64,000 nucleotides of DNA. It comes from Oscillospiraceae bacterium (lineage in GTDB: Bacteria; Bacillota; Clostridia; Oscillospirales; Ruminococcaceae). The DNA lies in contig JAFXCV010000058.1 in the NCBI GenBank assembly GCA_017521325.1, positions 1-64,000 of the forward strand. The letters are read 5' to 3'. The notes under the pieces are model-generated. The model saw only the letters and a program-made list of their open reading frames with translations, had not been told where the DNA came from and searched no databases. Below are positions 4,536 through 63,681 of the stretch, piece by piece. How positions within the stretch are numbered: position 1 is the stretch's first letter; every line of letters starts with the position of its first letter. A program made the translations under genes and the position numbers.

Positions 4536-4668
4536 TATGGATGAGGTGCAGCTTCAAATTCAAAATGCGTTTGAAAAGAATAAAGAATGAGGAAAATAAA
4601 ACTCACCGTTTCCGCTTGACAGCGAAGCTGTCAAAGGAAACATCTCACCGGCGGCGGTTCGCCGCCTT
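4536..4668. repeat. Family A fragment joined to a family B unit
   Basis: 4536-4600 holds the inner part of family A (GCAGCTTCAAATTCAAAATGCG, AAGAATAAAGAATGA). It is joined to a complete family B unit at 4603-4668 (CACCGTTTCCGCTTGACAGC ... GGCGGCGGTTCGCCGCC). The same A-B junction occurs at 1-241 and 11334-11482, so the two modules seem to travel together. Confidence 0.7.
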
Positions 4669-8479: not shown

Positions 8480-8800
8480 GGTGCGGCGGTTCGCCGCAGG
8501 TGAGATTATTTATTCTTTCTTCAATATTCTTCATTCTTTATTCTTCTGAAACGCATTTTGAAATTGAAGCTGCACTTCAGCATGTGGGTGGAGAACCCAA
8601 AGGGAAGGGGAACTCATTTCCCCTTCCCTTTCGGTTTCCCCCCACACCCCCCTTCCCGATTCCCATCCTCTTTGATGAGTGGATGCGGATGGTGCCAACC
8701 CTTCGGGCGAGGGGGGACGAGTGGTCTTGCGACCACCGTCCTGTTTGAGAGATTATGGAAACAGCTCACCGGCGGCGGTTCGCCGCAGGGGGCTTCTCGC
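8480..8800. repeat. Repeat cluster (B fragment, full family A copy 2, B fragment)
   Basis: GTGCGGCGGTTCGCCGCAGGTGAG, then the AT-rich arm with TTCTGAAACGCATTTTG, the GCTGCACTTCAGCATGTGGGTGGA box and the palindrome AAAGGGAAGGGGAA / TTCCCCTTCCCTTT, followed by a run of CCCCCACACCCCCC. This is the longest family A copy and is the reverse of 1-118. Near 8765 another GGCGGCGGTTCGCCGC palindrome occurs. Apart from the candidate sigG promoter nothing else was found between 8416 and 8851. Confidence 0.75.
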
Positions 8801-11333: not shown

Positions 11334-11482
11334 GAGAATGTTTATTCTTTATTCTTCTAAAACGCATTATAATTTTGAAGCTGCACTTCGCATGTGGGTG
11401 GAAGACCCAAAGGGAAGGCGGCGAACCGCCGCAGGTGAGATGTTTCCTTTGACAGCTTTGCTGTCAAGCGGAAACGGTGAGT
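11334..11482. repeat. Family A (truncated) joined to family B
   Basis: TTTATTCTTTATTCTTCTAA, ACGCATTATAATTTTGAAGC, TGCACTTCGCATGTGGGTGG and ACCCAAAGGGAAGG of family A, broken exactly at the start of its palindrome and continued by a family B unit (GGCGGCGAACCGCCGCAGGT ... GCTGTCAAGCGGAAACGGTGAG). The second half of the A palindrome is missing. Confidence 0.75.
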
Positions 11483-20437: not shown

Positions 20438-21721
20438 GTGGATAAATTTGTAATACGGGGCGGCAATCGTCTGATGGGAGAAATCCAGGTCAGCGGTGCA
20501 AAGAATGCCGCAGTTGCGCTCATTCCGGCAGTTCTGCTGTGCGATGAGCCGTGCGTCATTGAGAATGTTCCGGATATCAGTGACGTATCCATCTGTCTGC
20601 GCATCCTGTACGAGCTGGGCGCAGAGGTGGAGATGCTCAAGAGCGACACCTACCGCATTTCCTGCAAGGGTGTCAGAAGCTTCAGTGTTCCCTATGAGAG
20701 CGCAAAGCAGATGCGTGCATCCTATTATTTTCTGGGTGCGCTGCTGGGAAGAACGGGAAGAGCGAGAGTTTCGATGCCGGGCGGATGTCCGCTGGGCGAC
20801 AGACCGATCGACCAGCATCTCAAGGCGTTCAATGCACTGGGGGCAAATTCCTGCAACGATCACGGCATGATCGACCTGCATGCGGACAAGCTGCGTGGCG
20901 GTCAGATCTACTTTGACGTGGTTACGGTGGGTGCAACGATGAATGCAATGCTCGCTGCGGTCAAGACAGAGGGGCTGACAATTATTGAAAATGCGGCAAA
21001 GGAGCCGCATATCGTAGATCTTGCGAATTTCCTTAATTCCATGGGTGCGGATATCCGAGGTGCCGGCACGGATGTGATCAAGGTGCGTGGTGTTTCGTAT
21101 CTGCATGGAACGACCTATTCGGTGATTCCCGATCAGATCGAGGCAGGCACTTTCATGGTGGCTGCTGCGGCAACGGGGGGCGACGTGCTGGTAAAGGGCG
21201 TGATCCCGAAGCATCTGGAGCCGATCACAAAGAAAATGCGCAAAATCGGCGTAAACATTGACGAATACGATGACGCTGTGCGTGTCTGGGTGGAAGGCCC
21301 TCTGGTGAAGGCAAGCATCAAGACACAGCCGCATCCGGGCTTCCCGACGGACATGCAGCCGCAGATGGCAACGCTCCTGACGCTTGCGGAGGGAACGAGC
21401 ATCGTGACGGAGGGCGTCTGGGAACAGAGATTCCGTTATGTGGACGAGCTGCGCCGCATGGGTGCGGACATTGCGGTCAATGACAAGGTGGCGATTATTA
21501 CCGGCACGGGCAAGCTGATGGGTGCGCCTGTGAAGGCATGCGATCTGCGTGCAGGTGCGGCACTGATCATTGCAGGTCTTGCGGCACATGGCGTGACGGA
21601 GATCGAGGATATCCACCACATTGAGCGTGGCTACGGCAATATTGAAACCAAGCTGCGTGGCATTGGCGGCGATATCTGCAAGGTATCCACACCGCCCACG
21701 GCGATGAAGAAGGCGTTATAA
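20438..21721 (+). CDS. murA: UDP-N-acetylglucosamine 1-carboxyvinyltransferase
   Basis: First committed enzyme of peptidoglycan synthesis: transfers enolpyruvate from PEP to UDP-GlcNAc. 427 residues, standard length. N-terminal GGNRLMGEIQVSGAKNAAVAL contains the conserved Lys-Asn pair. The active-site loop MPGGCPLGDRPID carries Cys117, the fosfomycin target. Late blocks TDMQPQMATLLTLAEG and RAGAALIIAGLAA are typical. GTG start with GGAGAG upstream. Firmicutes often have two murA copies; which one this is cannot be told here. Confidence 0.97.
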   Translation: MDKFVIRGGNRLMGEIQVSGAKNAAVALIPAVLLCDEPCVIENVPDISDVSICLRILYELGAEVEMLKSDTYRISCKGVRSFSVPYESAKQMRASYYFLGALLGRTGRARVSMPGGCPLGDRPIDQHLKAFNALGANSCNDHGMIDLHADKLRGGQIYFDVVTVGATMNAMLAAVKTEGLTIIENAAKEPHIVDLANFLNSMGADIRGAGTDVIKVRGVSYLHGTTYSVIPDQIEAGTFMVAAAATGGDVLVKGVIPKHLEPITKKMRKIGVNIDEYDDAVRVWVEGPLVKASIKTQPHPGFPTDMQPQMATLLTLAEGTSIVTEGVWEQRFRYVDELRRMGADIAVNDKVAIITGTGKLMGAPVKACDLRAGAALIIAGLAAHGVTEIEDIHHIERGYGNIETKLRGIGGDICKVSTPPTAMKKAL

Positions 21722-21729
21722 TTGGGTGA

Positions 21730-21765
21730 CAGAAAGCCTGCCTGCGGATGCGGGCGGGCTTTTGG
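21730..21765 (+). terminator. Terminator after murA
   Basis: AAAGCCTGCCTGC, GGAT loop, GCGGGCGGGCTTTT; G-U pairs in the stem. Confidence 0.75.
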
Positions 21766-21778
21766 TATATGAACTTTG

Positions 21779-22000
21779 TTTCCGCTGAAGCGGAAAGGGA
21801 AGCAAAGCAATACGGCAGGGTAGGGGCGGCTCTCTATCGCAGAGCACGCCCCTCTTTCAAAAACAGTCCGCCGGACTGTTTTTGAAATTCACCCCCGTGC
21901 AGAGCTCACGTTGTAATATTTCGCTCACTTTGTGAGCGCCAAGGGGCGCCGCCCCTTGACCCCGCAAGCCTTTTGAAAAAGGCTTGTGCGAAAACTTTTC
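21779..22000 (+). repeat. Family C multi-hairpin repeat, copy 1
   Basis: A ~222-base element that recurs nearly unchanged at 48326-48554. Order: TTTCCGCTGAAGCGGAAA palindrome; AATACGGCAGGGTAGGGGCG, CTCTCTATCGCAGAG, CACGCCCC; CAAAAACAGTCC(G/A)CCGGACTGTTTTTG; ATTCACCCCCGTGCAGAGCT; TTTCGCTCAC..GTGAGCG; GGGGCGCCGCCCCTTGACCC; AGCCTTTTGAAAAAGGCT; GCGAAAACTTTT. Five or six self-pairing segments and no open frame of note. Confidence 0.9.
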
Positions 22001-22027
22001 AGACTGCTCCGCTTTGGGAGGGATGGT

Positions 22028-46811: not shown

Positions 46812-48284
46812 TCAGAGAATAAAGCAGATCAGTCCGCTGCAGCCCTCGTTGATGACACGTTCGAGTGTTTCCTGCAGCTTCATGCGTGCCTCCACAGGCA
46901 TTTTGAACAGCTTGTTGTGCAGTCCTTCGTTTACCAGCTCGTGAAGGGATTTTCCGAAAATATTGGATTCCCAGATCTTTGTCGGATCCTCCTCAAAGCC
47001 CTGCAGCAGGTACATCACCAGCTCCTCACTCTGTTTTTCCGTTCCGACAATGGGGCTGACCGTGGTGTTGATGCCTGCCTTCATCATGTGAATCGACGGT
47101 GCGGATGCCTTCAGGCGCAGACCGTATTTGCCGCCCTGTCGGATGATTTCCGGCTCTTCCAGATGCAGCTCCTCCATCTCCGGCATGACAATGCCGTAGC
47201 CCGTAGCCTCCACTTCACGCAGGGCAGGCTCCAGTCTTGCATATGCCTTTCTGACGGCTGTCAGCTCACGCAGGAGTTCCAGAAGGCTGCCCTCGTCACG
47301 GATCTCCAGCCCCGTCGCTTCCCCGAGAATCTTGAAAAACAGGCTGCCGTCAAGCGTGACGCCGATCGTGACCGTACCCGTACCGAGGTCGATTGCTGTC
47401 GGCTCAGCGCACAGGATGTGGCGGCATTTGCAGATGGGCTTTGCAAGCGCTGCGGCATCCTGCACGGTGGACAGCCCCTGCGCCGCCTCACGGATGGCGC
47501 CGAACACCTCCTGCTTGACGTGATGTCCCTTTTCAAGCATGGAGATCCAGCCGGGCATGGCGAAATTCACCTCACGGATGGGGAATGCATACAATAAAGC
47601 AGTGAGGATTTCACGGATATCCTCCTGTGACAGCTGCGTGCAGCTCACGGGGAGTACTGTCGTGCCGTAGCTTTCCTGCAGCTGTGCGGCGAGTGTTCTT
47701 GCTTCCTCGCTGTCGGGATCCACGCAGTTGAGCAGGACGACAAAGGGCTTGCCCAGTGCCTGCAGCTCTGTGATGACCCTTGCCTCCGCCTCGGCGTATT
47801 CCTCTCTCGGAATGTCGGAAATGCTGCCGTCCGTTGTCACCACAAGTCCGATGGTGGAATGCTCCGTGATGACCTTCTGCGTGCCAAGCTCGGCTGCCAT
47901 GTTGAAGGGGATTTCCTCCTCAAACCACGGCGTCATGACCATGCGTGGCATTTCGTTTTCGATGTAGCCGAGGGCACTCGGCACGATGTAGCCCACGCAG
48001 TCGATCATCCTTGCACGGAACTGCGCACCGTCGGCAAGATGCACGGGAACGGCTTCCTCGGGGATGAATTTGGGTTCGGTCGTCATGATGGTCTTGCCTG
48101 CTGCGGACTGCGGCAGCTCATCGACGGCACGTTCCTTTTTGTAGTCGCTTTCGATATTGGGGATCACAAGCGTTTCCATAAAACGCTTGATGAGCGTGGA
48201 TTTTCCTGTGCGCACGGGCCCGACCACGCCGATGTAAATATCGCCGCCCGTCCGCCTTGCAATGTCGGTGTAGATGTCTTTCAT
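46812..48284 (-). CDS. spoIVA: Spore coat basement-layer ATPase SpoIVA
   Basis: Cytoskeletal ATPase that polymerises on the forespore surface and founds the coat. 490 residues (B. subtilis 492). N-terminal Walker A GPVRTGKST (22-30) after MKDIYTDIARRTGGDIYIGVV, then VDELPQSAAGKTIMTTEPKFIP and DCVGYIVPSALGY, all classical. The C-terminus SGLICFIL is the conserved polymerising/anchoring end. Transcription should be sigma-E dependent; no clear -10/-35 was found in front. The partner gene sipL is directly upstream. Confidence 0.98.
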   Translation of the reverse strand: MKDIYTDIARRTGGDIYIGVVGPVRTGKSTLIKRFMETLVIPNIESDYKKERAVDELPQSAAGKTIMTTEPKFIPEEAVPVHLADGAQFRARMIDCVGYIVPSALGYIENEMPRMVMTPWFEEEIPFNMAAELGTQKVITEHSTIGLVVTTDGSISDIPREEYAEAEARVITELQALGKPFVVLLNCVDPDSEEARTLAAQLQESYGTTVLPVSCTQLSQEDIREILTALLYAFPIREVNFAMPGWISMLEKGHHVKQEVFGAIREAAQGLSTVQDAAALAKPICKCRHILCAEPTAIDLGTGTVTIGVTLDGSLFFKILGEATGLEIRDEGSLLELLRELTAVRKAYARLEPALREVEATGYGIVMPEMEELHLEEPEIIRQGGKYGLRLKASAPSIHMMKAGINTTVSPIVGTEKQSEELVMYLLQGFEEDPTKIWESNIFGKSLHELVNEGLHNKLFKMPVEARMKLQETLERVINEGCSGLICFIL

Positions 48285-48325: not shown

Positions 48326-48554
48326 TTTCCGCTGAAGCGGAAAGAAAAGTACTGCAATACGGCAGGGTAGGGGCGGCTCTCTATCGCAGAGCACGCCCCT
48401 CTTTCAAAAACAGTCCACCGGACTGTTTTTGAAATTCACCCCCGTGCAGAGCTCCCTACGGATGTTATAGGATTTCGCTCACTGCGGTGAGCGACAAGGG
48501 GCGCCGCCCCTTGACCCCGCAAGCCTTTTGAAAAAGGCTTGAGCGAAAACTTTT
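48326..48554 (+). repeat. Family C multi-hairpin repeat, copy 2
   Basis: Same element as at 21779-22000 with about 15-20 differences concentrated in one middle segment (TCACGTTGTAATATT versus TCCCTACGGATGTTATAGGA). Here it separates spoIVA from sipL. Confidence 0.9.
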
Positions 48555-48575: not shown

Positions 48576-50120
48576 TCAGTTCACGATCGGGATAAGCAGC
48601 ATGCCGTCCTCTGTGAGGGAATCGCCCGTCAGGTCGTTCTCCTCCATGATGGCGGAAACACTCGTGCGGCAGCGCTTGGCGATCTCCCAGATCTCCTCCT
48701 GCACCTTGCCGAAATACAGCTTGAGTGCGTGGTTTCTCGGATGCGCCGCATCCTCCTGCACCTCAAAATCCGTCAGCACCTCGCACAGCCTGCTGCAACA
48801 GAGTGTGCCCTCCAGACGAAGATGTGTTTTCAGAGAAACCTCCGACTGCCCCGTCAGTGTGTAGGAGCAATCCTCGATCACCGCAGAAAACTGCACGCTG
48901 TCGTGCATGTGAGGCTTTACCGTCATACGGTGTTCAAAGGGTTCCTCATGCTCAAGAAGCCTTGGCATGCCGCCGCCCTCACGCACCAGAACATTGCAGC
49001 AGAGCATGCCGCCCAGCAGCAGTTCGCCGCTTTGTTCGTCCGTGCGGCTTGAAAGATTCTTCACCTCGCACCATGCGTCATACACGCACACCGGCTCGCA
49101 GTCCTCGCAGGAAAGCCTTGTGCTGACGGTCACAGGCTCGGCAAATACTTCCGGAACACCGCCCGTGTGGAGAGCAGTGGTGCTGCAAACGCTCTGATGC
49201 TCGGTGGAAAATGCATCGCAGACAAGCATCTGTGTTGCCATGCGCACCGCTGTGCAGCAGATGCGAAGCTCCGCCTCCAGACGCAGGATATGGACATTCC
49301 CCTCGGCATCCGTCACGGGCTTGATGTCGCAGGCGGCAACCGTCGTGCGCACATGGCAGTGATCGTCCTCCTGTAGATTTTCGGTTTCGAGGAGTTTGCT
49401 GTAGGGAATGCGGAAGGACATCGGCTCCAGACTGCTCTCGCCATCCTTTTCACAGGCGTAGAGCAGGCGCACTTCCAGTGTTCCCTGCGTCATAAGCTTG
49501 CCCGAAACCTGCTTGTGAGATTCCTCCAGCGTGACCGCATCACAGCGGACGACGTGAAGAACGGGGGGCTTCTGTGTTCCAAGCTCCAGATCCTCCGAAA
49601 GCACCACGTTTCCTGTGGTCTGCACTGTGCTTTCAGGGTATTCCACGGGAATCTGCCTGCACTGCACGCTTTTTTCGGGGATGTCGCAGATTGCCTCCTG
49701 CCTGCTGCAGGGCTGCATGCGGATGCGTACCGTCACAGCCCCACGCACATCCAGACGGCGGCGGCTCACGGCACGGCAGTTGACATAATCCGTCACGGGC
49801 GTAATTTCCACGCAGCAGCCCTCATCGGGAAGCTCCGTTTCCAATGTGCGGCTGAAATGCAGCGTCTGGGTTACGCACTGCAGCAGATGGCTGTCCTCAC
49901 TGCAATAGAGAATGCGGATCTGCGCACGCAGCTCGTAGGTAATCCGTCCGCCGCTGATGGTTTCGGCGGTGATGGTCGGGGTGACCATGCATCTGACAAG
50001 CTTGCAGACATCGGGATAGTAGTCCGGCAGGACATAATCCAGCTCCAGTCCCTGTTCCTGTACCGAAGTCTGTGCAGGCATGGCGGCAGTAATGACAGCC
50101 CGTTTGGTTTTCAGTTCCAT
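48576..50120 (-). CDS. sipL: SpoIVA-interacting protein SipL (SPOCS/LysM)
   Basis: 514 residues. Two or more SPOCS (DUF3794) domains: LELDYVLPDYYPDVCKLVRCMVTP, LETELPDEGCCVEITPVTDYV, ILRLEAELRICCTAVR. The C-terminal LysM domain KVQEEIWEIAKRCRTSVSAIMEENDL is the part of C. difficile SipL that binds SpoIVA. Only Clostridia-type spore formers have sipL. Start at 50120 with AGGAGG. Adjacency to spoIVA strongly supports the name. Cys-rich (over a dozen), unusual for a cytoplasmic coat protein. Confidence 0.92.
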   Translation of the reverse strand: MELKTKRAVITAAMPAQTSVQEQGLELDYVLPDYYPDVCKLVRCMVTPTITAETISGGRITYELRAQIRILYCSEDSHLLQCVTQTLHFSRTLETELPDEGCCVEITPVTDYVNCRAVSRRRLDVRGAVTVRIRMQPCSRQEAICDIPEKSVQCRQIPVEYPESTVQTTGNVVLSEDLELGTQKPPVLHVVRCDAVTLEESHKQVSGKLMTQGTLEVRLLYACEKDGESSLEPMSFRIPYSKLLETENLQEDDHCHVRTTVAACDIKPVTDAEGNVHILRLEAELRICCTAVRMATQMLVCDAFSTEHQSVCSTTALHTGGVPEVFAEPVTVSTRLSCEDCEPVCVYDAWCEVKNLSSRTDEQSGELLLGGMLCCNVLVREGGGMPRLLEHEEPFEHRMTVKPHMHDSVQFSAVIEDCSYTLTGQSEVSLKTHLRLEGTLCCSRLCEVLTDFEVQEDAAHPRNHALKLYFGKVQEEIWEIAKRCRTSVSAIMEENDLTGDSLTEDGMLLIPIVN

Positions 50121-50177
50121 AAATGACCTCCTTGCTTTGTCCGAAGCTGCCATCGGGCGGCTCCGCTGTTGGTAGAT

Positions 50178-58060: not shown

Positions 58061-59365
58061 ATGCAGGAAACATTATTGTGGATTTTACTTGTCGTCTGCA
58101 TCCTCATCGGCATCCTGTGCATCGTGCAGGGTGTGATGCTGTGGCGGCTTATGAAGGATGGCGGAAAACAGCCTGCCGTGCAGGACGATTACGAAGCACT
58201 CCGTCAGAAGCTCACAGAGCTTGGCGTGTCCATGCAGGCAACACAGCAGACGGCATCGCAGTATTTTGAGAAAATGGCAGGCATCCTGCAGGAGGATCAG
58301 CGCCGTGCGGCGGTGTCCCTTGAAGAAAAGCAGGTGCTGCTCGGAAAACAGACCATACAGAATCTGGCAGAGATCCGCACCTCCAACGAGGCGCTGACAC
58401 TGCGCACCGAGGAACGTCTGCGGACGTTTGCGGCAGAGAATGAGCAGAAGCTCGGTGCAGTACGGCAGACCGTGCAGCAGGGCTTGCAGCAGATGCAGCA
58501 GGAGCAGGAACGACAGCTCAGCGAAATGCGCAAGGTCGTGGATGAGAAGATGCAGCGTGTGCTCGATGAGCGCATGAAGCAGGCGTTTTCCGCAGTCAAT
58601 GAGCGTCTGGAGCAGGTGCATAAGGGACTGGGCGAAATGCAGACACTTGCGGTTGGCGTGGGGGATCTCAAGAAGATCCTGACAAACGTGAAAACAAGGG
58701 GAGAGATCGGAGAGATCCAGCTTGCATCGCTCCTTGCGGATGTCCTGAGCGAGGGGCAGTATGTGCAGAACGCAAAGCTTGGCAAGGGCGTTGTGGAATT
58801 CGCCGTGCGTATGCCCGACAGCACGGGCGGCGAAGCACTCCTGCCGATCGACGCAAAATTTGCAGGCGACACCTATGCACATTTGCAGGATGCCTACGAA
58901 TCGGGCGACAAAACGGCGATTGCACAGGCGCAAAAACAGCTTGCATCACGCATCCGCAGCGAAGCGCAGGATATCGCAGAAAAATATGTGGATCCGCCGA
59001 TGACGATGGATTTCGGCATTTTGTTCCTCCCCACGGAGGGGCTTTATACGGAGGCGGTACGTTTGGGACTGCCGGACGAAGTGTTCCGCAGGCACAGAGT
59101 ATTCATCACAGGCCCGACAACGATTACGGCGATCCTCTGCACATTGCAGATGGGCTTTCAGAGCATTGCCGTGCAGAAATCAAGCGGAGAGGTCTGGAAG
59201 CTTCTTGCCGAGGTGCGCACGGAATTCCATAAGTTCGCCGACGCACTTGCCAGAACGCAGGACAAAATGCAGAGTGCCAGCGACGAGCTGGATAAGCTTG
59301 TGGGCGTGAGAACAAGACAGATGGTGAAAAGGCTGGATAATGTACAGAATTATCTCACTGACTAA
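58061..59365 (+). CDS. rmuC: DNA recombination protein RmuC
   Basis: 434 residues. One N-terminal transmembrane helix (TLLWILLVVCILIGILCIVQ), a long coiled coil (~30-200; MQQEQERQLSEMRKVVDEKMQRVLDE), then the RmuC nuclease-like core: RGEIGEIQLASLLADVLSEGQYVQN, PIDAKFAGDTYAHLQDA and MDFGILFLPTEGLYTEA. RmuC limits DNA inversions in E. coli. AAAGGAAA precedes the ATG at 58061. No partner gene beside it. Confidence 0.95.
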   Translation: MQETLLWILLVVCILIGILCIVQGVMLWRLMKDGGKQPAVQDDYEALRQKLTELGVSMQATQQTASQYFEKMAGILQEDQRRAAVSLEEKQVLLGKQTIQNLAEIRTSNEALTLRTEERLRTFAAENEQKLGAVRQTVQQGLQQMQQEQERQLSEMRKVVDEKMQRVLDERMKQAFSAVNERLEQVHKGLGEMQTLAVGVGDLKKILTNVKTRGEIGEIQLASLLADVLSEGQYVQNAKLGKGVVEFAVRMPDSTGGEALLPIDAKFAGDTYAHLQDAYESGDKTAIAQAQKQLASRIRSEAQDIAEKYVDPPMTMDFGILFLPTEGLYTEAVRLGLPDEVFRRHRVFITGPTTITAILCTLQMGFQSIAVQKSSGEVWKLLAEVRTEFHKFADALARTQDKMQSASDELDKLVGVRTRQMVKRLDNVQNYLTD

Positions 59366-59369
59366 CGAA

Positions 59370-59502
59370 CAGGGGGACGCTGTCCCCCTGACCCCCTGCC
59401 AAAGGGATGTACATCCCTTTGGAATCCCTTAGCGTTTCGCCATTGCCCCCTGTGGGGGACAAAGGCGAAACGTTAAGATTGCAAGCAATCCATTCTTTGG
59501 CG
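59370..59502. repeat. Family D repeat, copy 1
   Basis: AGGGGGACGCTGTCCCCCTG, CAAAGGGATGTACATCCCTT, GCGTTTCGCCATTGCCCCC, GGCGAAACG, GATTGCAAGCAATCC: three inverted repeats and a long-range GCGTTTCGCC/GGCGAAACG pair. Recurs at 63483-63614 with few changes. Confidence 0.88.
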
Positions 59503-59574
59503 AGGTGAACAGGGAACAAAATCCCCTGTCCATTTGACAATGATATATTATGAACATTAAGGAGGCTTTACACC

Positions 59575-61098: not shown

Positions 61099-63482
61099 TG
61101 CATTACAGTAAGGACATTTTTCTGAGCTTCATCGAAGGCTCCCTGACAAAGCCTGTGGAAGAAACCACACCGCAGGAGCTGCACAACATTCTCGGCGAAA
61201 TGGTCATGAACCTCATGACCGAGGACTGGGAGGACAGCAGGGCTGCGCACAGAAATACACGGCATGCGTGCTATTTCTCCATGGAATTTCTCATGGGCAG
61301 GAGCATTTTCAACAATCTCCTCTGCCTTGGCATTTATGATGAAGTGGAAGCTGCCATGCAGGAGCTTGGCACATCGCTGACGGAACTCGAATGCATCGAG
61401 GATGCCGCCCTCGGAAACGGCGGTCTTGGCAGACTTGCGGCGTGCTTCCTTGACAGTGCGGCAGCACTCGACCTGCCGCTTGACGGCTACGGCATCCGCT
61501 ACAAATACGGACTCTTTAAGCAGAGCATTGAGGACGGCTTTCAGAGGGAGGATGCCGACGACTGGACACGCTTCGGCGATGCGTGGTCGGTTCGCTGCGA
61601 GGAGGATGCACAGCTGATCACATTCAGCGATCAGGTGGTAAAGGCAGTTCCCTATGATATGCCGATCATCGGCTATGGTACGAAGAATATCGGCACACTG
61701 CGCCTGTGGCAGGCGGAACCTCTGAAGCAGTTCGATTTCCACACCTTCAACAGTCAGCACTATCTGGAGGCATGCGCTGAACAGATCTATGCGGAGAATA
61801 TTTCCCGCTGCCTGTATCCGAACGATGACACGGACGAGGGCAAGAAACTGCGCTTAAAACAGCAGTATTTCTTCTGTTCGGCATCGCTGCAGGATCTGCT
61901 GAAAAAGCATTTTGAAGACAACGAAACGATGGAGAATCTCCCCGATGCCATTGCCGTTCAGCTCAACGACACGCATCCTGTGATTTCCATTCCGGAGCTG
62001 ATTCGTCTGCTGACAACGCAGTACGACGCTGCGTTTGAGGATGCAGCGGAGATGGCGAGAAAGATCTTCCGCTACACAAACCACACCATCATGGCGGAGG
62101 CACTGGAAAAATGGAGATGCGACCTTGTGCGTGAGCTTCTCCCTGAAATCTATCAGATCATCGTCAGACTCCACGAAATGCTCATTGCCGAGCTTTACAA
62201 TAAGGGCGCAGAAAAGGCAGAAATCAATAAGATGCGCATCATTCAGGACGGCATGATCCACATGGCGCACATGGCGATTTTCATGGGCAGCTTTGTCAAC
62301 GGCGTTGCGGAAATCCACACGCAGATTCTCAAGGATACCGCCCTTTCCGACTGGTACAAGTACTACCCCGAGCGTTTCTCGAACAAGACAAACGGCATTA
62401 CCCAGAGAAGATGGCTGCGCCTTTGCAACCGTGAGCTTTCCGCACTTCTGACGGAGCTTCTCGGCAGTGAGGACTGGGTGACAAACCTCGATCTTCTCAA
62501 GCAACTTGACAAATATGCGGAAGATACAGAGGTCATGAATCGCTTTATCTCCATCAAGCAGGAAAAGAAACAGCAGCTTTGCGATCTGATCTTTGAGCGT
62601 GAGGACCGCATTGAAGAAAAGGCATATTTCAACACGGACAGCGTGTTCGACATTCAGATCAAGCGCCTGCATGAATACAAGCGTCAGCTCTTGGCGGCGT
62701 TCTCGATTCTGTATCTCTACTACGGACTGAAGGACGGCAGCATCACGGATATTCCGCCTGTGACCTTCTTCTTCGGCGCAAAGGCGGCTCCCGGCTACCG
62801 CAGAGCCAAGGCAATTATCAAGTTCATCAACGAAATTGCGCAGATGATCGCAAGTGATGAGGAAATCTGCGGCAAAATCAAGGTATTCTTCGTATCCGAT
62901 TACAACGTATCCTATGCTGAAAAGCTGGTTGCGGCGGCGGATATTTCCGAGCAGATCTCCACCGCAGGCACGGAGGCATCCGGTACGGGCAACATGAAGC
63001 TCATGCTCAACGGTGCGGTAACCCTTGGCACCTATGACGGTGCGAATGTGGAGATCGTGCAGGAGGCAGGCGAGGAAAACAACTACATCTTCGGCGCAAG
63101 AGTCGAGGAGCTCAAAGAAATCGTTCCGAACTACGACAGCCGTGCAGTTCTTGCAAAGGATGACAAGATCCGCAGAGTCGTGCAGACCCTCATGGACGGC
63201 ACGTTCGATGACGGCGGCAGCGGCGATTTCAAGGAGCTTTACGATGCCCTCACCGAGGGCGCAAGCTGGCATGCCCCCGATCATTATTACGTACTGGGCG
63301 ATCTTGACAGCTACGTCAAGGCAAAGGTACAGGCTTTGCAGGATTATCAAAATGACCGCATGGCGTTCGCCAAAAAACAGTGGCACAATATCTGCGGCGC
63401 AGGTAAATTCAGCTCTGACAGAACCATCCGTGAGTATGCACAGGAAATCTGGCAGATTGAGCCTGTTTCCTTTCAGAACTAA
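61095..63482 (+). CDS. glgP: Glycogen/maltodextrin phosphorylase
   Basis: GT35 PLP-dependent phosphorylase releasing glucose-1-phosphate from alpha-glucans. 795 residues, normal for the family. ACYFSMEFLMGRSIFNNLL at the N-terminus, LEDAALGNGGLGRLAACFLDS-type block (here IEDAALGNGGLGRLAACF), DGYGIRYKYGLFKQSI, and the PLP lysine block TEASGTGNMKLMLNG; KRLHEYKRQLL is also typical. The start MMHYSKD overlaps the malQ stop. With MalQ it makes a complete malto-oligosaccharide degradation pair. Confidence 0.97.
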   Translation: MMHYSKDIFLSFIEGSLTKPVEETTPQELHNILGEMVMNLMTEDWEDSRAAHRNTRHACYFSMEFLMGRSIFNNLLCLGIYDEVEAAMQELGTSLTELECIEDAALGNGGLGRLAACFLDSAAALDLPLDGYGIRYKYGLFKQSIEDGFQREDADDWTRFGDAWSVRCEEDAQLITFSDQVVKAVPYDMPIIGYGTKNIGTLRLWQAEPLKQFDFHTFNSQHYLEACAEQIYAENISRCLYPNDDTDEGKKLRLKQQYFFCSASLQDLLKKHFEDNETMENLPDAIAVQLNDTHPVISIPELIRLLTTQYDAAFEDAAEMARKIFRYTNHTIMAEALEKWRCDLVRELLPEIYQIIVRLHEMLIAELYNKGAEKAEINKMRIIQDGMIHMAHMAIFMGSFVNGVAEIHTQILKDTALSDWYKYYPERFSNKTNGITQRRWLRLCNRELSALLTELLGSEDWVTNLDLLKQLDKYAEDTEVMNRFISIKQEKKQQLCDLIFEREDRIEEKAYFNTDSVFDIQIKRLHEYKRQLLAAFSILYLYYGLKDGSITDIPPVTFFFGAKAAPGYRRAKAIIKFINEIAQMIASDEEICGKIKVFFVSDYNVSYAEKLVAAADISEQISTAGTEASGTGNMKLMLNGAVTLGTYDGANVEIVQEAGEENNYIFGARVEELKEIVPNYDSRAVLAKDDKIRRVVQTLMDGTFDDGGSGDFKELYDALTEGASWHAPDHYYVLGDLDSYVKAKVQALQDYQNDRMAFAKKQWHNICGAGKFSSDRTIREYAQEIWQIEPVSFQN

Positions 63483-63614
63483 CAGGGGGACGCTGTCCCC
63501 CTGACCCCCTGCCAAAGGGATGTACATCCCTTTGGCATCCCATGGCGTTTCGCCATTGCCCCCTACGGGGACAAAGGCGAAACGTTAGGATTGCAAGCAA
63601 TCCATTCTTGGGCG
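63483..63614. repeat. Family D repeat, copy 2
   Basis: Same order as 59370-59502; CATCCCATGG and CCCCCTACGGGGACA replace two segments. The two copies bracket malQ-glgP. Confidence 0.88.
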
Positions 63615-63681
63615 GGGAGCAGAGGACACCCCACCCTATCAGTGCGGAAACAAACAGCACAAACAAGGAGATGTATCCTAT

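Follow-up and report, generated by a model that had tools for sequence, protein, structure and literature searches.

Family C, a multi-hairpin element present in two copies in the window (the whole 64,000-nt stretch of DNA analysed), is probably a family of MITEs mobilised by a hairpin-directed DDE transposase of the IS1182 type, and the two window copies would be worn members of it. Better-kept relatives carry terminal inverted repeats, CAGNYTGTCRAWAAAG, and are placed between two copies of one host hairpin.

Both window copies are located on the + strand, in agreement with the earlier note, which had described a co-oriented pair. The copies and their segments are as follows.

21779-22000, + strand: first family C copy; homologous to copy 2 over ~21771-22002
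21779-21796, + strand: stem H1, copy 1; supported by fold, alignment, and covariation
21823-21852, + strand: stem H2, copy 1; three sequence types across the family, 3' arm echoed after H3
21855-21887, + strand: stem H3, copy 1; palindrome with A-run and T-run, two-way-terminator-like, outer pairs covary
21888-21920, + strand: TTCACCCC motif and variable middle segment, copy 1
21922-21938, + strand: stem H4, copy 1; supported by fold, alignment, and covariation
21940-21958, + strand: stem H5, copy 1; supported by fold, alignment, and covariation
21965-21986, + strand: stem H6, copy 1; supported by fold, alignment, and covariation
48326-48554, + strand: second family C copy; antisense to the spoIVA and SPOCS-domain genes on its two sides
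48402-48434, + strand: stem H3, copy 2

The two copies are identical in 207 of 229 alignment columns (90.4%). They are clearly alike, although "near-identical", the wording of the earlier note, is a little strong for 22 differing columns of 229. Its statement that most of them cluster in the middle is roughly correct, as 11 of the 22 fall in a middle segment of 26 columns, compared with 6 of 121 columns on the left and 5 of 82 on the right. The predicted folds (copy 1, -105 kcal/mol, z -7.3; copy 2, -110.5 kcal/mol, z -8.1; 200 shuffles each) are far beyond chance and contain six stems (H1-H6), where the earlier note had counted five or six.

The window contains other repeats, as well. Another multi-hairpin intergenic family has many copies in both orientations (189-241, 1864-2088, 4604-4665, 8757-8786, and 11414-11472), the one at 1864-2088 being a four-fold tandem array. 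A further hairpin-rich repeat is present in two copies 4.1 kb apart (59364-59513 and 63477-63625; 90-94% identity), and a long inverted repeat has 145-nt arms, 94% complementary and 8.4 kb apart (1-145 and 8509-8653).

The search for more copies that the earlier note had proposed gives four in the source genome (2.48 Mb, 75 contigs), of which two lie beyond the window.

C21:19307-19464: third source-genome copy, 79% identity; worn ends (13 and 12 of 16) and the last 9 nt of the duplicated hairpin
C20:16451-16605: fourth source-genome copy, 74% identity; a hairpin adjoins its left side

Matches to the window copies occur in 17 of the 61 genomes searched, source genome included (match counts in this search include second-strand matches of the palindromic stem). 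A pattern scan of genome contigs finds at least 119 stretches with the family C pattern, and the matches listed come from MAGs titled Ruminococcus, Oscillospiraceae, Clostridiales, or Clostridia. In all, 134 distinct copies were gathered by the core and the TTCACCCC motif, mostly from rumen or gut Ruminococcus/Oscillospiraceae MAGs. The outcome that the earlier note had equated with a simple duplication, namely two copies only and no compensatory changes in the stems, is not what we find, since copies are many and compensatory changes are present. The 90% identity of copies 1 and 2 would also be expected had a single intergenic region simply been duplicated or gene-converted, but this is highly improbable given that the flanking genes are unrelated, that the source genome has two further copies, that 134 distinct copies were gathered in all and many genomes contain the family, and that the family has target duplications and an empty site. 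Nor is the suggested gene conversion needed, because the divergence between copies 1 and 2 (about 90% identity) is close to that separating copy 2 from the orthologous copy of genome G022, the nearest relative (92%).

Some family C copies contain additional sequences. A second small element (~50-60 nt, GCGCTCGTTCCTCGCTGGC or its complement) is located within the stems or the middle segment in L024, L148, and L050, and an insert with GAGTCTCGGCTGCCGCCTCGGTCGG is located in the H5 loop in L157 and L162. The H3 palindrome, AAACAGTCCNCYGGACTGTTT, is also found in 14 stretches of viral contigs (L166-L179), four times in L172; their flanks are different, and they were excluded from family C.

Ends were scored in 87 of the 134 copies, the other 47 being left out for short flanks. 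With a score of at least 13/16 as the criterion for a terminal repeat, the left end is recognised in 26 of 87 copies, the right end in 23, and both in 15, whereas reversed-sequence controls give 1 and 0 of 87. At least one terminal repeat, CAGYYTGTCRAWAAAG, is present in 34 of the 87, and the left end lies at a near-fixed distance from the core (100-109 nt in 25 of 26 copies). Neither end reaches 13/16 in 53 copies, both window copies included. The two-ended family C elements are 225-335 bp long, later inserts included, which is below the 500 bp taken as the upper limit for a MITE, and contain no gene.

The flanks of two-ended elements point to hairpins as the target. We assembled 59 such elements (14 of family C, 43 with other interiors, and 2 IS1182) and looked for direct repeats of at least 14 bp and at least 85% identity within 3 nt of the ends. 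Direct repeats are present in 45 of the 59, including 11 of the 14 of family C, and missing from 14; pairing the left and right flanks of different elements as a control gives 0 of 1155. Of the 45 repeats, 42 form a stem of at least six pairs, and in 37 of these 42 neither repeat end is more than 2 nt away from the stem foot, at repeat lengths of 17-41 bp. A T-run after the right copy or an A-run before the left copy accompanies 25 of the 45. Therefore, what these repeats show is a hairpin, and not strictly a terminator. Adjoining and tandem elements occur as well (L026 and L122).

The same ends enclose other interiors. A scan for the end pattern gives 76 forward and 76 reverse matches in genome G002, 53 and 48 in G009, and 25 and 9 in the source genome, against 0-2 for reversed-pattern controls. 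Most of the G002 elements examined have a different, hairpin-rich interior of 162-166 bp. In the source genome, a 151-bp element with another interior and IS1182-type ends (L010:7296-7446, contig C20) is flanked by a perfect 28-bp hairpin target duplication. A 1540-bp end-to-end pair in L294 was considered as an IS and rejected, as it consists of two neighbouring elements around two genes, which by eye from the translation look phosphoglycerate-mutase-like and SpoVA-like. In two elements of the G013 interior type (L215 and L219), a further element is nested, bounded by inverted ends of its own (AATGCCAACAACTTAG ... CTAAGTTGTTAGCATT).

Autonomous relatives with the same ends are found in the IS1182 family. 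Within the genus, 16 of 38 genomes contain genes that match this family (NF033551), 2 of them above cut-off; within the order, 55 of 197 do, 16 of them above cut-off. Among 20 IS1182 loci examined, eight (L314, L316, L406-L408, and L410-L412) have ends like CAGNYTGTCRAAAAA, and all eight have hairpin direct repeats of 27-35 bp; no repeat of this length is found at the 12 loci with other or no clear ends. L404 and L405, which have other ends, are located between two different hairpins. No IS1182 gene was found in the incomplete MAGs G002 (152 terminal-repeat ends), G013, G015, G022, G027, and G029, and the source genome has only an 18-bit match. The partner may have been lost from the element-rich genomes, missed in MAGs, or supplied from outside. 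The DDE families PF13751 and PF01609 were also tried as autonomous partner in 13 genomes and rejected, with few matches and none between paired ends.

The window copies are located in two different gene contexts, as the earlier note had observed: copy 1 comes after the murA terminator and has the orientation of the next gene, whereas copy 2 is antisense to both neighbours.

20438-21721: murA
21733-21762, + strand: murA terminator hairpin, also present at the unoccupied site in G022
46812-48284, - strand: spoIVA, flanking copy 2
48576-50153, - strand: SPOCS-domain gene, flanking copy 2

A search for empty sites in relatives, also proposed in the earlier note, finds one for copy 1. The nearest relative, G022, has the same murA terminator and no element (L374 versus L375), and copy 1 is likewise missing from the other 28 loci compared. 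Copy 1 starts ~5 nt past the foot of the murA hairpin, not at the foot, and comparison of the locus with relatives reveals no second hairpin after it. Its right end merges into the leader of an MBL-fold gene; because the G022 sequence differs there, a deletion at this end is likely. Copy 2 is present in 2 of 30 loci, those of the source genome and G022, at the same place in both. At its site, 22 of the 28 element-free relatives have no terminator and a gap of 11-38 bp between the genes. In genome G004 (L366), an unrelated repeat is present in tandem between the SPOCS-domain gene and spoIVA, indicating that this site upstream of spoIVA takes up elements repeatedly.

No end of either window copy scores above 11/16, which is control level, and no duplicated hairpin is found at either site. 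The best explanation is that the window copies are worn family members with an intact interior, whose terminal repeats and target duplication are no longer recognisable; their assignment to the IS1182-type MITE family would thus be by interior homology alone. Copies without terminal repeats could instead have spread by a second hairpin-recognising route, for example a Y1/REP-type transposase, with the IS1182 ends marking one branch only. The copies in genome G023, which are alike inside and have unrelated flanks right up to H1, and the position of window copy 1 away from the hairpin foot are consistent with such a route. However, some of these copies (L035 and L095) keep apparent worn ends just after a terminator hairpin, and the fixed end position in several genomes argues that the ends are ancestral. 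For two-ended copies, the long direct repeats argue against a REP/BIME element mobilised by RAYT. We consider the second route unlikely.

For the family, the suggestion of a mobile non-autonomous element is supported by the copies, the terminal inverted repeats, the target duplications, the empty site, and the autonomous IS1182 relatives with the same ends, and from these comparisons of sequence we infer that family C transposes.

The interior of the element is conserved in pairing. In 21 diverse sequences (alignment A3), 94.6% of the cells of the six stems are paired. Changes on both sides of a pair are seen at 24 pairs and in 118 cells, compared with 15.0 and 36.6 in shuffles, of which 0 of 500 reach either value, and with 7-9 pairs and 10-26 cells when the partners are slid by 1-3 columns as a control; shared descent among copies inflates all such counts. 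The signal is carried by H1, the outer pairs of H3, H4, H5, and H6. Alignment A2 comprises 44 of the 65 usable copies among the 134, and A3 comprises 21 of those 44, picked for similar interior type. The invariance of the H3 core in A2 and A3 partly reflects the way in which copies were picked out, by a match to this core with at most one mismatch; it is variable among copies from the whole-element search (CAGCAT/ATGCTG in L029), and two G002 copies examined (L028 and L042) have a mismatch within it.

H2 occurs in three types, which the aligner put out of register. The H2 assignment of RNAalifold is therefore wrong and was replaced by one set by hand, and the hand-set stem is only 79.4% paired for the same reason. 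In every type, the sequence following H3 is an echo of the H2 3' arm, and type and echo change together. Matching the 3' arm, the echo provides a second possible partner for the 5' arm.

These observations raise the question of whether the interior is a functional structured RNA, either a cis element or a small RNA, that is under selection while its mobility is incidental, and in which the 5' arm of H2 could alternate between two partners, its own 3' arm and the echo. The covariance analysis called for by the earlier note does reveal strong compensatory change, the H2 type and the echo vary jointly, and the interior is retained in copies without terminal repeats, all as expected for such an RNA. 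However, maintenance or repair of palindromes at the DNA level can yield the same compensatory signal, so that, of the two readings in the earlier note, the mobile element is supported for the family and the "structured RNA" is a candidate only, and the H2-echo evidence comes from few independent types. In addition, Rfam gives no match within the window at the gathering threshold and three at E up to 1, all implausible; no promoter-like site was found at copy 1 or copy 2; and no constant relation to any gene is seen. We regard a functional RNA as rather doubtful.

In the preferred reading, that of a hairpin-directed MITE, the IS1182-type transposase would act in trans on gene-less family C elements. 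The targets would be hairpins, mostly terminator-like, and insertion would duplicate the whole host stem-loop, with the repeat ending at both stem feet whatever the stem length. Because a complete hairpin copy would be present on each side of the element, the stop signal would outlast the insertion. The six-stem interior is most likely passenger sequence in which pairing is kept, and H3 perhaps ends read-through transcription.

A broader proposal, which we hold to be about as likely as not, is that in a subgroup of IS1182 transposases the target is gauged by its shape, with DNA joined at the feet of an extruded hairpin. The duplication would then be a hairpin of any length (17-41 bp here), with termination kept on both sides, and gene-less passengers with several unrelated hairpin-rich interiors would exploit this, their interiors possibly having grown by hairpin uptake. 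The elements would thus form a large natural set of integrations in which the target duplication tracks DNA shape and not a fixed stagger, and with which the mechanism of hairpin-directed DDE transposition becomes testable. The set also suggests how elements could pile up harmlessly, each insertion at a terminator leaving a terminator on each side, and would explain a substantial share of the multi-hairpin DNA between genes in this genus.

Short intergenic repeats with strong secondary structure are known from other bacteria. The bcr1 repeat of the Bacillus cereus group is thought to be a MITE and differs from family C in sequence, host, and target. IS1182 elements are listed in reviews with direct repeats that can reach tens of bases, and we therefore claim no priority for the hairpin-sized duplication. 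Our literature search found no report on MITEs in Ruminococcus.

The closest known systems, as far as the available portions of the sources describe them, share either the target or the ends of family C. IS1272 and TnSha1, of the IS1182 family, target hairpins irrespective of their sequence, and several of these hairpins are confirmed terminators (PMC5678879, PMC4923244). Both these elements and the family C set are hairpin-targeted and IS1182-type, but IS1272 and TnSha1 are described as deleting the target stem-loop, without target duplication (PMC5678879, PMC4923244), whereas in the family C set the whole stem-loop is duplicated. Duplication of the whole hairpin appears in PMC5678879 as the hypothetical pathway b, and the family C set looks like a realisation of that pathway. 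MITEPye1 of Paracoccus yeei has IS1182-family-like ends, an intergenic location, a long stem-loop fold, and 1-3 copies per chromosome; the host is different, and the available description mentions no hairpin-sized repeat or multi-stem covarying interior (PMC11578231). The ISMac2-related MITEs of Methanosarcina acetivorans (160 and 169 bp) are assigned to an IS1182-family partner, and their listed direct repeats are apparently 4 and 0 bp, in contrast to the hairpin-sized repeats of family C (PMC3852290). Hairpin targeting by IS1182 elements and MITEs with IS1182 ends are thus already known from these sources; as far as our searches reach, what is new is the family itself, together with its covarying interior of several stems and the scale on which hairpin-sized duplication is seen.
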